NCBI GenBank assembly: GCA_009594995.1
Contig: VOPR01000011.1
Location: 1-64,000, forward strand
DNA length: 64,000 nt
Origin: Nitrospira sp.
Lineage (GTDB): Bacteria > Nitrospirota > Nitrospiria > Nitrospirales > Nitrospiraceae
Direction: 5' to 3'
Below the pieces are notes generated by a model. It worked only from the letters and a program-made list of their open reading frames with translations. It made no database searches and was not told the DNA's origin. Positions 28,180 to 33,006 of this stretch are shown here, in pieces. Position numbers and translations under genes: made by a program. Each line of letters starts with the position of its first letter. Positions within the stretch are counted from its first letter, which is position 1.

Positions 28180-29979
28180 TCAGTGACCGGGAATCCGAAT
28201 CGGAGGCTTCTCTGCCTCTTCGGGGACATGGATCATCGACTGGTTGGCCAACAGGATGTAGCCGTAGCGTTCCAACATGACCGGATACTCCATGGTCTCG
28301 AACGGCAATCTATTTCGCATGGCCGCCGGTAGGAGGATCATCGTGCGTCCCGGTTGGGTCAGGTAGGGCTTAATATTGGCCTCTTCGCCTTTGGGCACGA
28401 CGATGGCTTTTCGTTTCGCATAGAACACCAGCGAGGGACGTGGTTGCCCGTACAGAATCAGCCGGTCGTTGGGACCAAGATTGAGCCCTGCGACATCCGC
28501 CAGCCGCTGCGGCGGGTCGATGACAAAGTGATGCACTATTGGAAACGTCAGTTGCGTAGTGGCGAGCACCACGAGGGCTAATGATCCACCGGCGGCCCAG
28601 AACGCGGCCGGTCGTCTGGTCTCACTCAGTCCAAAGTACGCGACAAGACCCATTCCCACCAGGAAGATCGATGCGATGGTATAGGGCCCTGGTCCGAGTG
28701 TGACCTGTCCCGCTAGGGGAAACTCATCGATCAATTTCACGGCAAACTTGGCATAGAGCGGCGGGAGCGAGGCAAAGGCCAGCGCCAGGATATAGCCGAC
28801 CGCCGTCATCGTATGGATCGCGGCACGCAGGCTGGGCGCGGCATGATCGGTCACGCAACGATTCCAATAGGTAGCCGTCAAGATTGCCGCCGCGGGAAAC
28901 AGAGGCCCGATGTAGTGCGGCAAGCGGGTCGAGGAGAGACTGAAGAAGACGAATCCACCCAGAACCCAGGCGGCGGCAAACCATTCAAGCGCATGGGGGG
29001 AGGGCTGGAAATCGGAGGCCGTGGGCTGTGACGGCGGCAGGGTTCCGCTTTGTCTCGCATCCCGCCAGGTTCGATAGGACTGATACCAGGCGAAGGGCAG
29101 GAGGCCGCTCCAGGGGAAGAACCCGAGGAGGAACACGGGCAGATAAAATAGCAACGTGCCCCCGTGCCCTTCCATGGCGCCGAAGAACCGGCCGATCGTG
29201 TCGCCCTGTGCGGAGGTTGTGTAGCGCTGCCCATGAATATTCAGCATCATGAGGTACCAGGGGAGCGCGAGCAGGAGAAGGAGGGCCAGGCCTGGAACCA
29301 GAAACCCTTGGCGTCGGAATTGCGACCAGGAGCGGGTCAGCCAGAGGTACAGTCCTGCGGCCAGCATTGGAATGAGAAAACCGATTGGGCCTTTCGTCAG
29401 CGTCGCCAGTGCCATGCCGATATAGAAGAACCACATGGCATGGCGTTCACGTCCCTCCCCGTACAGGCCCAGCCAGAATCCATAGAGCGACAAGGTCGTG
29501 AAGAAGATCAGCACACTGTCGGTGAGGGCCATTCGACTGAGCCCGATGATCTCGAGGTTCAGTAAGAGCATCGCTGCGCCGAACAGGCCGATCACCGGCC
29601 CCCGGCAGCGTGTCAGAAACAAATATTGGAGTAGGATGAGGCCCAGGCCGAACAAGGCGGACGGAAAGCGCGCCGCGAATTCGTTCACACCGAATGCGTG
29701 ATAGGACAGCGTCATGAGCCAATAGACGAAGACCGGCTTGGCAAAACGCGGCTCATAATTGAAGGTGGGGCTGATGTAATTGCCCGTTTCATACATTTCG
29801 CGGCCGGCTTCAGCATTGCGCCCTTCGTCCCGATCGGTCAAGCCGAGGGACCCGAGTCCGACAAAAAACAGCACGGCGGCCAGGGACAGCAGCAGGACGA
29901 GGGCCAATGGTTGAATCGACCGATCGATGGGCGCAGGTGTCTGCAAGGGCGGGAGCTCTCCGTTCATTTGGGGTTCCAT
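28180..29979 (-). CDS. ArnT-like GT39 membrane glycosyltransferase
   Basis: The 599-residue product is a polytopic inner-membrane protein of the ArnT/PMT (GT39/GT83) type, which moves a sugar from a polyprenyl phosphate to lipid A or protein on the periplasmic side. The catalytic loop is seen as GLTDRDEGRNAEAGREM (about residues 46-62), with the Asp-Glu pair, and NYEPRFAKPVFVYW follows. A stretch of about a dozen hydrophobic segments comes next. ATG 29979 is chosen over an upstream in-frame start at 30204, as it overlaps the preceding stop (TAATG). It is last in a three-gene glycosylation operon. Confidence 0.9.
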   Translation of the reverse strand: MEPQMNGELPPLQTPAPIDRSIQPLALVLLLSLAAVLFFVGLGSLGLTDRDEGRNAEAGREMYETGNYISPTFNYEPRFAKPVFVYWLMTLSYHAFGVNEFAARFPSALFGLGLILLQYLFLTRCRGPVIGLFGAAMLLLNLEIIGLSRMALTDSVLIFFTTLSLYGFWLGLYGEGRERHAMWFFYIGMALATLTKGPIGFLIPMLAAGLYLWLTRSWSQFRRQGFLVPGLALLLLLALPWYLMMLNIHGQRYTTSAQGDTIGRFFGAMEGHGGTLLFYLPVFLLGFFPWSGLLPFAWYQSYRTWRDARQSGTLPPSQPTASDFQPSPHALEWFAAAWVLGGFVFFSLSSTRLPHYIGPLFPAAAILTATYWNRCVTDHAAPSLRAAIHTMTAVGYILALAFASLPPLYAKFAVKLIDEFPLAGQVTLGPGPYTIASIFLVGMGLVAYFGLSETRRPAAFWAAGGSLALVVLATTQLTFPIVHHFVIDPPQRLADVAGLNLGPNDRLILYGQPRPSLVFYAKRKAIVVPKGEEANIKPYLTQPGRTMILLPAAMRNRLPFETMEYPVMLERYGYILLANQSMIHVPEEAEKPPIRIPGH

Positions 29980-30278
29980 TAGGATTTGGTTGCCGAAGAG
30001 GCGGCGCCGGGGTCGGCCTGGTTCGGACGGTGGATGAGCATGAGGTTGCGCAGGTAGACGACACTGCCGATGCTTTGTCCGGCAATGAAGACCGGGTCTT
30101 TTCGGTAGATCGCATAGGCAAGCGTGATCAATCCGCCGATCATGCTCATGTACCAGAACGCCGTCGGCACACGGCTTTCCGCGTGGCGCTCGGAGGCGAT
30201 CCACTGGACAACCCAGCGCATGAAGAAGATTCCCTGCCCGAGGAATCCGATAATCAACCAGATGGTGTCGAGTGTCAT
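29979..30278 (-). CDS. Small membrane protein with lipid A biosynthesis N-terminal (LAB_N) fold
   Basis: The 99-residue protein has three hydrophobic segments and the family phrase GQGIFFMRWVVQWIASE, with PTAFWYMSMIGG and YRKDPVFIAGQS. This is the LAB_N domain, seen as a free protein or fused to LpxB. Free copies sit beside GT2/ArnT genes, as here, and may help move or modify the polyprenyl-linked sugar, an inference. The long ORF that begins at 30569 is antisense-like in its first 97 codons and rejected; ATG 30278 overlaps the GT2 stop. Confidence 0.88.
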   Translation of the reverse strand: MTLDTIWLIIGFLGQGIFFMRWVVQWIASERHAESRVPTAFWYMSMIGGLITLAYAIYRKDPVFIAGQSIGSVVYLRNLMLIHRPNQADPGAASSATKS

Positions 30279-31051
30279 AGGCGTACGGGGGCCGAAATCG
30301 AAGGCGATGAGGTGGTTCCGGCGGCGCGGTAGTGGTAACGCAGACAACGGTGCTGCATCCATCGCACGGCCACCAAATCGTACAGACCCTTGAAGAGGCG
30401 GTTGCCCACGCCGTATTTCGAGGTGCCCCGGGTGCGCGGATAGTGGCGCACCGGTACCTCGGTCACGGTGAACCCATGCATCAAGGCGAGGGCGGGAAAG
30501 AACCGGTGCATGCCCTCGAACAGCTGTAGTTTGTCGATCACCGACCGGCGAAACAGTTTCAGCGAACAACCGGTGTCGTGCACTCGGTCGCCGGTGACGG
30601 CGCTACGCACGCTGTTGGCTATGCGTGACGAAATTTTGCGGGTCAGGTTATCGTGACGGTCTTTGCGCCAGCCGCAGACGAGGTCGAACGTGCGGATGAG
30701 CGGCAGCAGCGTGGCGATATCTGCCGGGTCGTTTTGGAGATCGCCGTCGATGGTCATTACGAGCTCGCCGGTCGACTGTTTGAATCCGGCATCGAAGGCT
30801 GCCGATTGGCCGTAGTTGCGGTCGAAGTGAAAGACTTTCACGACAGGGTATTGAGCGGCCAGCCGATCCAGCATTTCGGAACTCCCGTCCGTGCTGCCGT
30901 CGTCGATAAAAAGCAGCTCGAAGGGAGCTGAGCGCGACTCCTCCCGGCTGTCCAGGACCTTCACGAGTTGCTCTGTCAGGGGGACCAGATTGTCGCGTTC
31001 ATCCTTGATCGGGATGACAACGGAAGCCCATGGGCGGGTGGCCACAGTCAT
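30275..31051 (-). CDS. GT2 glycosyltransferase (polyprenyl-phosphate sugar synthase, DPM/ArnC-like)
   Basis: The 258-residue enzyme has the GT2 fold: SVVIPIKDERDNLVPL (about residues 10-25), FIDDGSTDGS, and DGDLQNDPADI with the metal-binding DxD-like DGD. HDTGCSLKLFRR and HYPRTRGTSKYG are typical of dolichol-phosphate mannosyltransferase and ArnC-like proteins. No clear transmembrane hairpin is seen at the C-terminus. It is first of three coupled genes (GT2, LAB_N, ArnT-like), and would supply the lipid-linked sugar used by the GT39 enzyme. Confidence 0.92.
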   Translation of the reverse strand: MTVATRPWASVVIPIKDERDNLVPLTEQLVKVLDSREESRSAPFELLFIDDGSTDGSSEMLDRLAAQYPVVKVFHFDRNYGQSAAFDAGFKQSTGELVMTIDGDLQNDPADIATLLPLIRTFDLVCGWRKDRHDNLTRKISSRIANSVRSAVTGDRVHDTGCSLKLFRRSVIDKLQLFEGMHRFFPALALMHGFTVTEVPVRHYPRTRGTSKYGVGNRLFKGLYDLVAVRWMQHRCLRYHYRAAGTTSSPSISAPVRL

Positions 31052-31163: not shown

Positions 31164-32864
31164 TCAGGCCGGCAGGTCGATCGATATCCGCCGATCGACG
31201 TGTGCGGAGAATGTCGGATCGTTCGAGATGAAGACCACCGACCAGGGCTCGTCTTTCGCGCAAAGCCGGCGAAGCAACAACTCCCTCGTGGCGGGCAGCA
31301 TATTGTGGAGCGTGCCGTCGAAGATCAACAGTTGCGGACGGGTCACAATGGCACGGGCCACGAGGAGGCGGAGAATCTGACTCATGGAGAGGTGCGTGTC
31401 CAGGCTGGAGACCGTCGTGTGCAATCCCTGCGGCATCGCGTCGATGTCACCGTCCAGCTCCACGAAGCGCAGCGCCCATTGGAGGTCATGATAGTCGATG
31501 GTGGGGCGGCCGAGCGTAATGTTGTCTTCGAGCGTGCCGTCCAGCAGCGTCGGATGCGAGTCCAGGACGAGTCCGCGTACTCGGCTGATGGACTGTTGCT
31601 TCACTTCCACCAGATTCATGTCGTTGTACCGGACGAATCCGCTCGTGGGAGGATGAAGTCCGGCAAGAGTCTTGGCGAGGGCGGTCTTGGCCCTGTTCGT
31701 GCCGCAGAGCACCGCGATTTTCTCCCCCGGTGCGATCTCCAAGGACACGTTCTGGAAAATTGTCGCGCCGTCTGTGGCTGTATAGGAGATGTTTCGGCAG
31801 GTCACGCGAATGCCGAAGGCTCCAAACTGCGACACCGGCACGTCTTCTTTTGCGCCCTCTTCCTCCGTCGGCAGGGAAAACACGGCTGCCATCTCACGGC
31901 AGGAGACGAACGTAAAAAACATCGCCACCATACGGCGTGCCAGAGTGTCCATGTTGATCAACAGGTTGCCGACCAGGACTTCGGCGGCGGCGAATTGTCC
32001 CACGGTCAATTGCCCATCGACCACGAGGAGTCCGGCGGTGATGAGCAAGCCACTATGGCCGACCACCTGCCACAGGGCCGCCGCTTTGTATTGCCGCCCC
32101 GTGAGGGTGTCGGAGCGGCGCTGCCGGATTCGTGCATAGTTGCGGGCCAGGCCATCCGTCCGCTCCAGAAGATAGGGGCTCTCTCCGGCCGCCCTGAGGT
32201 GAGGGAGGTTGTGCGCGATGTTTTGGATCCAGCCGAAAATCTCGTAGTGCAGCCGCGACATCTCCAGCGTAATGAAAAAGCCCCCGCGTCCGAACAGGGT
32301 GAGGAGTCCCACAAATCCCAGGATCAATATCAGAATGTACAGGACGAAGAAGGGATGGAACAGCATCAGCATGGTGACCCCGATGGTTCCGACGACGGCC
32401 ACGTTGAACAGATCCGCCACCATGGCAACCAGGGCGCGAGTGAGCAGGTCGGCCTCCATGAAGCGATGGGCTTGTTGGGGCGCAAACGTATCGTCGCGTA
32501 GACGGGGGAGCAGCCGGGTAAATCCGATGGCAATGCGGGTATAGATGCGTTGCTGCAAGGTTTCCACGGCACGCGCTTGCAGCACGCGGAACGCTGCGAC
32601 GCCTGTGAGGGAACTGGCGACGAACAGCGTCAGCGTAAAAATCATGCGGGGTTCCATGGCAAAGGAGAAGGTGCTGACCAGCTCCTGAACGGCGATGGGG
32701 ACGCAGAGCAGGAACAACCCGATGGCGACGGCATAGGAGGCGATGATGCCGAGCATCGGTCGCTCCAGTTTCAGTAGAAACGTAAGGTGCGCGAAGATAT
32801 CGCGCAGCACTTGGGTGAGCTGATACTGAGGATAAGTCGGGGTGTGTGAGGGGGGCTCGTTCAA
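31164..32864 (-). CDS. ABC half-transporter-like protein with degenerate ATPase domain
   Basis: The 566-residue protein has the layout of an ABC exporter: six hydrophobic segments in residues 35-320 and a nucleotide-binding-type domain after about 355. Nearly every catalytic motif is altered. The Walker A region reads CGTNRAKT (387-394), with all three glycines changed but Lys393-Thr394 kept. The signature is LSMSQ (492-496) instead of LSGGQ. Walker B is LLIFDG, with Gly517 in place of the catalytic glutamate, and the H-loop region reads FISNDPTF with no histidine. It is probably unable to hydrolyse ATP alone. It starts at TTG 32864, with AGGAG five bases upstream inside a hairpin, 112 bases upstream of the glycosyltransferase operon. 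Confidence 0.88.
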   Translation of the reverse strand: MNEPPSHTPTYPQYQLTQVLRDIFAHLTFLLKLERPMLGIIASYAVAIGLFLLCVPIAVQELVSTFSFAMEPRMIFTLTLFVASSLTGVAAFRVLQARAVETLQQRIYTRIAIGFTRLLPRLRDDTFAPQQAHRFMEADLLTRALVAMVADLFNVAVVGTIGVTMLMLFHPFFVLYILILILGFVGLLTLFGRGGFFITLEMSRLHYEIFGWIQNIAHNLPHLRAAGESPYLLERTDGLARNYARIRQRRSDTLTGRQYKAAALWQVVGHSGLLITAGLLVVDGQLTVGQFAAAEVLVGNLLINMDTLARRMVAMFFTFVSCREMAAVFSLPTEEEGAKEDVPVSQFGAFGIRVTCRNISYTATDGATIFQNVSLEIAPGEKIAVLCGTNRAKTALAKTLAGLHPPTSGFVRYNDMNLVEVKQQSISRVRGLVLDSHPTLLDGTLEDNITLGRPTIDYHDLQWALRFVELDGDIDAMPQGLHTTVSSLDTHLSMSQILRLLVARAIVTRPQLLIFDGTLHNMLPATRELLLRRLCAKDEPWSVVFISNDPTFSAHVDRRISIDLPA

Positions 32865-32867
32865 AAC

Positions 32868-32899
32868 AACTCCTACCGCGTAGTGCGCTGGTAGGAGTT
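32868..32899 (-). promoter_or_regulatory. Hairpin that covers the ribosome site of the ABC-like gene
   Basis: On the transcript, AACTCCTACC (32899-32890) can pair perfectly over 10 bp with GGTAGGAGTT (32877-32868). The Shine-Dalgarno AGGAG (32874-32870) lies in the second arm, five bases before the TTG start. The 12-base loop can also pair GCG with CGC. This is a plausible translational switch, attenuator or thermometer. Confidence 0.6.
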
Positions 32900-32976
32900 A
32901 TCAGCCGTACGCGGGGATCGCGGCCGGCGGTTCTCGGTGAACTCCATCACCCGGGGGATTGTCTCAGTCTGGACGA

Positions 32977-33006
32977 AGTCTAGACCGGGACCCTACCGGT
33001 CGTCAA
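32977..33006 (-). promoter_or_regulatory. Candidate promoter of the ABC-like gene
   Basis: On the minus strand TTGACG (33006-33001), an 18-base spacer and TAGACT (32982-32977) lie about 110 bases upstream of the TTG start, so the hairpin at 32868-32899 would be in the leader. Confidence 0.45.

Follow-up and report, generated by a model that had tools for sequence, protein, structure and literature searches.

Gene and neighbourhood

The window, the whole stretch of 64,000 nucleotides analysed here, belongs to a draft assembly (3.78 Mb, 98 contigs) of Nitrospira, a main oxidiser of nitrite in soils, water and sewage plants. On its minus strand, positions 31164..32864 hold an uninterrupted reading frame with a TTG start, encoding a 566-aa protein that we refer to as a type A pseudo-ABC, a putative ATPase-less ABC half-exporter. 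Its N-terminus agrees with those of the orthologues, in which a GTG or TTG start is found at the same spot behind the Shine–Dalgarno (SD) sequence. A membrane domain (TMD) is followed by a nucleotide-binding domain (NBD) in one half-transporter, as judged from NCBIfam exporter profiles and from PF00005 (ABC_tran), the sole Pfam match (residues 371–516, E 1.7e-11). TIGR03797 matched residues 23–516 (E 8.5e-43) with 146.8 bits against a curated cut-off of 709.4, and the protein scored far under every curated cut-off of the ABC exporter profiles. PF00664 gave no match at E 0.001, although the Bacteroidota members and one Sphingomonadales member of the family described below score above that profile's own threshold. 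The Pfam search also placed the protein outside the Fluc (PF02537) and CLC (PF00654) families. An AlphaFold model from 14 close orthologues had a pLDDT of 42 and was left out of all inferences. An in-frame stop close to the junction of membrane domain and NBD divides the type A gene of one draft assembly (L042:4184-5884) into parts of 372 and 192 aa; this could be an assembly error.

Downstream on the same strand (28180..31051), as the original prediction had described, lie three genes encoding a GT2 protein, a LAB_N domain protein and an ArnT-like GT39 protein. From this arrangement a connection with envelope glycolipids had been proposed; it appears weak, and we regard these genes as context outside the system. 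The order methyltransferase - c6 - [ABC] - GT2 - LAB_N - ArnT is old, and the ABC gene occupies the same locus in other genera (L125, L126 and L131; in L128 it lies on the other side), so a loose positional tie remains. However, the GT2, LAB_N and ArnT genes were present in 11/11 tested relatives without the ABC gene, which indicates that the operon is independent of it. These relatives also keep c6, located directly beside GT2 in most cases where the locus was readable, with the ABC slot closed. The ABC gene is separated from GT2 by further genes in several genomes, and it has a promoter-like element and a riboswitch of its own.

A fluoride riboswitch precedes the gene

A fluoride riboswitch aptamer (RF01734), which the original prediction had missed, was detected at 32885..32960 on the minus strand, covering the full model (1–64) with 52.3 bits in cmscan against a gathering threshold of 34 (E 7.6e-14). 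It lies 20 nt upstream of the start codon, on the same strand, and is the single fluoride riboswitch of the window genome. Immediately 5' of the gene, a putative expression platform (32868..32899, minus strand) forms a predicted SD-sequestering hairpin with an MFE of -19.8 kcal/mol, whose stem is nearly invariant in 15 orthologues. In this hairpin, AACTCCTACC (32899-32890), which is the 3' strand of the aptamer, pairs with GGTAGGAGTT (32877-32868), the latter holding the SD sequence AGGAG, while AACTCC has an alternative partner, GGAGTT (32945-32940), inside the aptamer. Just 5' of the aptamer lies a promoter-like element, TTGACG-N18-TAGACT (32977..33006, minus strand), recognised as a consensus match; its -35 hexamer is invariant and its -10 hexamer nearly invariant in the 15 orthologues. 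The leader as a whole is nearly invariant in this set, and the sequence farther upstream is not.

This layout reads as a translational ON switch: AACTCC would pair with the aptamer in the fluoride-bound form or else with the SD segment, so that fluoride would free the SD and the protein would be made. Judging from these sequence features, regulation of the pseudo-ABC gene by fluoride is well supported. A riboswitch lies 20–60 nt ahead of 21/21 copies of the gene in 20 congeneric genomes, and also precedes the copies in L125, L126 and L131, which belong to other genera. In G025, a type A gene shares a 19-kb stretch (G025:C17:240342-259150) with five fluoride riboswitches, a cluster that is a candidate fluoride-resistance island.

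Conserved alteration of the ATPase motifs

The changes in the catalytic motifs read exactly as originally predicted for Walker A, the signature, the Walker B glutamate and the H-loop. The Walker A region is CGTNRAKT (residues 387–394; 31683..31706, minus strand), in which K393 and T394 are kept and both Walker A glycines are gone. The signature is LSMSQ, not LSGGQ, and the Q-loop is altered too, with one extra residue. In the Walker B/D-loop segment LIFDGTLH (residues 513–520; 31305..31328, minus strand), the Walker B aspartate D516 is kept, Gly517 replaces the catalytic glutamate (FDGTLH) and the invariant His520 follows; in the H-loop, which reads ISNDP, the histidine is replaced by N548.

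The same altered motifs were found in 52 distinct family members, and homologues at 80–90% identity were present in about 20/29 congeneric genomes. Among 73 distinct Nitrospirota homologues, Gly517, His520, Trp541 and Asp549 were each present in 73/73, whereas a canonical Walker A (GxxxxGK[ST]) and the H-loop histidine were each present in 0/73; K393 was kept in 63/73 and the Walker B aspartate in 60/73. By comparison, canonical exporters used as controls, some encoded in these genomes and others on plasmids, had the Walker A motif and the H-loop histidine in 21/21 cases and the catalytic glutamate in 20/21. Since the altered motifs are conserved among homologues, none of the Nitrospirota members carrying the canonical ones, the pseudo-ATPase character proposed at the outset is supported, and the ABC exporter scaffold appears, from its motifs, to work no longer as an ATPase. 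Given that Lys393, Thr394 and Asp516 are kept, the window protein may still bind nucleotide.

The orthologues are under purifying selection, with a dN/dS of about 0.06–0.13 at a dS of about 1; the ratio was about 0.03–0.09 in the membrane domain versus about 0.08–0.18 in the NBD. Decay of the gene, already discounted in the original prediction on account of its open frame, is ruled out by this dN/dS range and by the conserved altered motifs. Recent loss in a single strain is ruled out by the presence of the same alterations across the 73 Nitrospirota homologues. An ordinary heterodimer with one good site was likewise rejected, given that the operons contain no canonical partner and that both members of a paralogue pair in the source genome (contig C22, see below) are degenerate.

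The membrane domain defines a separate family

The membrane domain (residues 1–345; 31830..32864, minus strand) carries family-specific invariants, namely Q60, H170, F173, S203, Q258 and E295. The first five are invariant in 88/88 family members, and Glu295 is present in all members outside a subtype that has multiple TolC genes; there it is mostly Gln. This subtype, from one sister genus (L113, L115, L118, L121 and L122), encodes three tandem TolC/OEP proteins ahead of pseudo-ABC and HlyD, and most of its members show the Glu295-to-Gln change. Canonical exporters seldom or never have H170, F173, S203, Q258 or Glu295 at the equivalent place, and the membrane-domain residues are fixed or nearly fixed across three phyla. 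Glu295 of the window protein is probably located in TM6, and together with His170 it would be a candidate coupling or gating residue.

In a TMD-only tree, 45 family rows fell on one side of a branch with 100% support and 20 canonical exporters on the other, although long branches meet at this dividing branch and leave the deep branching uncertain. Among 198 Nitrospirota genomes, a search with the TMD alone returned pseudo-ABC proteins as its only matches, all with E <= 1e-111; no canonical member of the same TMD clade was found in these genomes, and nothing fell between 1e-111 and 1e-12.

Relatives in HlyD-TolC operons

The source genome encodes two adjacent paralogues (51% and 45%) on contig C22, downstream of genes for an HlyD-like adaptor and a TolC/OEP protein. 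Both of these paired half-exporters (G000:C22:28263-31714; L048 7264-13940) are degenerate, and a gene for a 4HB_MCP four-helix-bundle protein lies just past them. The HlyD-TolC-pseudo-ABC layout repeats across the order. Beyond it, 20 plasmid records matched an adaptor query from an order-level relative, and the loci that were opened carry ABC-HlyD-TolC; they come from Bacteroidota (Persicobacter, Aureibacter and Riemerella) and from Sphingomonadales (Novosphingobium, Sphingobium, Sphingomonas and Croceicoccus), and such plasmid records are the only source of family members outside Nitrospirota. None of the plasmid-borne ABC proteins has the full catalytic set. Bacteroidota members retain parts of Walker A; in Riemerella this motif is kept, and the signature and H-loop are altered. 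All Sphingomonadales members have lost the Walker A lysine and the Walker B aspartate with the operon retained, and order-level relatives likewise retain the operon without the Walker A lysine.

Scans of HlyD-TolC operons, type D paralogues and plasmid loci detected no fluoride riboswitch, and fluoride is thus not the ancestral cargo. Other neighbours recur. In L050, L051 and L054 (type D) and in L039 and L045 (type A), the pseudo-ABC gene is followed on the same strand by genes for a histidine kinase and an NtrC-like sigma-54 regulator, which suggests, by analogy, a sensing role as in BceAB-type transporters. A gene for DabA (inorganic carbon transporter, PF10070) adjoins a pseudo-ABC operon in a Nitrospirota genome (L060:15975-19223, minus strand) and, independently, on a Sphingobium plasmid (L104:1362-3914, plus strand).

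Fluoride exporters and fluoride-linked genes across genomes

Profile searches detected neither CrcB/Fluc nor CLC in the draft window genome, nor in the single-contig genomes G004, G009 and G023, all of which carry the pseudo-ABC gene. Fluc was present in 1/24 genomes with the gene versus 20/40 without it, a count that leaves out a short CrcB fragment in G015 and for which the Fisher value of 1e-4 is optimistic, the genomes being related. Within the genus, the corresponding figures were 0/20 and 2/9 (p 0.09). One genome, G169, has the pseudo-ABC gene and Fluc together. In five Nitrospira genomes (G005, G016, G024, G027 and G028) we found none of the pseudo-ABC gene, the fluoride riboswitch and Fluc; an exporter is therefore not strictly needed.

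The genes usually found under fluoride riboswitches encode exporters, Na+/H+ antiporters and enolase (PMC11139923). In our dataset, the riboswitch lies directly ahead of CrcB in G216 and G228 and ahead of a Na+/H+ exchanger in G001 and G007. At locus L043, the pseudo-ABC gene heads Na+/H+ exchanger pieces, Usp and enolase, which are followed by a second fluoride riboswitch before a dynamin-like gene. Such a dynamin-like GTPase gene behind a fluoride riboswitch was observed twice (L043:6726-9189 and L128:583-2493); to our knowledge, this association has not been reported.

A proposed fluoride-resistance gene on an exporter scaffold

Considering these data together, we favour on balance the explanation that the pseudo-ABC gene provides resistance to fluoride by means of an ABC exporter scaffold without a working ATPase, and that it evolved from the transporter of an HlyD-TolC-pseudo-ABC tripartite system that lacks the fluoride switch. 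The protein is probably an ATP-independent fluoride exporter or channel, with which the channel-like role guessed in the original prediction is compatible. Its NBD is without the catalytic glutamate, the H-loop histidine and both Walker A glycines, losses seen throughout Nitrospirota, and a homodimeric membrane domain would let fluoride leave the cell without ATP. In Fluc channels the membrane potential drives passive fluoride exit, and CLC-F works by proton antiport. By analogy with the former, the pseudo-ABC dimer might let anions through passively, with the inside-negative membrane potential as the driving force; by analogy with CLC-F and with the membrane domains of LmrA and MsbA, which can be proton-coupled for substrates of their own, it might be coupled to protons. 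In either mode, it would do the job of Fluc or CLC-F in those Nitrospira that have neither. ATP-free transport has been measured for the LmrA and MsbA membrane domains, which run on ion gradients (PMC6155054, PMC4979069), and a plant ABCB protein cuts fluoride in Escherichia coli and oocytes (PMC9317437).

Several other explanations have to be weighed against this one. The protein could be induced by fluoride and yet serve something other than fluoride transport, relieving acidification, metal-fluoride damage or envelope damage through the transport of ions or of some other substrate, for which the Na+/H+ antiporters of the same regulon offer a parallel. Fluoride-riboswitch regulons do include many non-exporter genes (PMC11139923), the genes clustered with the pseudo-ABC gene include Na+/H+ exchanger, Usp, enolase and dynamin-like ones, and its paralogues serve systems without fluoride control. 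We nevertheless consider this role unlikely, if worth keeping in view, because the gene occurs in genomes that are without both known fluoride exporters and because a switch of the same kind drives CrcB in sister genomes. The pseudo-ABC protein might otherwise be an inactive partner or scaffold, which forms mixed dimers with the HlyD-TolC-pseudo-ABC complex specified at another site of the genome, or docks to it, and so modifies that complex under fluoride. It is closely related to the pseudo-ABC proteins of the HlyD-TolC type, at least one of which is encoded in 20/20 genus genomes with the gene (adaptor and OEP genes having been read in a subset of the 20). However, nearly every genome that lacks the gene has the HlyD-TolC operon as well, and this co-occurrence therefore carries little weight. 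The partners in the operon pairs are catalytically degenerate too and would supply no energised site. Moreover, no HlyD adaptor or TolC/OEP gene linked to the window gene was found at its locus and no partner ABC protein is encoded nearby, while linkage to HlyD and TolC/OEP is seen for the G000:C22 paralogues and among relatives from three phyla. A partner role thus seems improbable.

It is also conceivable that the protein is still powered by ATP, bound through Lys393, Thr394 and Asp516, with unusual residues in place of the glutamate and the histidine. The retention of K393 (63/73) and of the Walker B aspartate (60/73) and the fixation of the new Gly517, His520, Asp549 and Trp541 point in this direction, and nucleotide binding alone can drive translocation by TmrAB (PMC7756269). 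Against it stand the order-level relatives and all Sphingomonadales members, which do without the Walker A lysine, the latter also without the Walker B aspartate, and we judge an ATP-powered mechanism very unlikely.

Returning to the favoured reading of an ATP-independent route for fluoride, a fluoride-switched gene in genomes without the known fluoride exporters may encode a new type of bacterial fluoride-resistance protein. Only two classes of bacterial fluoride exporter are known (PMC11139923), and in the open-access literature we found neither an ABC protein under a fluoride riboswitch nor an ATPase-less ABC protein in a tripartite operon. We tentatively put forward, as one joint proposal that may well need revision, that the pseudo-ABC protein adds a third class to the fluoride exporters of bacteria, namely an ATPase-less ABC membrane dimer, passive or proton-coupled, under a translational fluoride riboswitch, and that it forms one branch of a wider family of ATPase-less ABC transporters, whose members run tripartite systems with HlyD and TolC in three or more phyla. 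Nitrospira are often without both known exporter classes, and the pseudo-ABC gene is a concrete candidate for the third. The family in turn raises the question of how a tripartite exporter of the ABC type that is conserved across three phyla runs without a catalytic nucleotide site.

Comparison with known systems

The best profile matches over both TMD and NBD are type I secretion and NHLM bacteriocin exporters (TIGR03797, which is NHLM bacteriocin exporter ABC2, TIGR03796 and LssB TIGR03375), and the paralogues resemble type I secretion systems in their operons with an HlyD-like adaptor and TolC/OEP. The window protein differs from these exporters in its score (146.8 versus 709.4 bits), in the loss of its catalytic residues, in its position away from HlyD and TolC and in its fluoride switch. 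With Fluc/CrcB and CLC-F it shares the place behind a fluoride riboswitch, the proposed ATP-free operation and the company of Na+/H+ antiporter and enolase genes, but it belongs to an unrelated family. CsABCB9 of the tea plant is an ABCB-type protein reported to lower cellular fluoride (PMC9317437); this 227-aa chloroplast protein is likened to the window protein by type and reported effect only.

An ABC exporter fold with a degenerate nucleotide site is also found in TM287/288, TmrAB, TAP and CFTR, the last being an ABC anion channel. These proteins keep one catalytic site, whereas all sites of the pseudo-ABC proteins are degenerate, two-gene operons included. The membrane domains LmrA-MD and MsbA-MD resemble the window protein in that an ABC exporter membrane domain works without ATP, as is proposed here; they were, in contrast, obtained by engineering shortened forms of active ATPases whose substrates are drugs or lipids. 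LmrA has an essential glutamate in TM6, E314 (PMC6155054), and Glu295 of the window protein is probably in TM6 as well.
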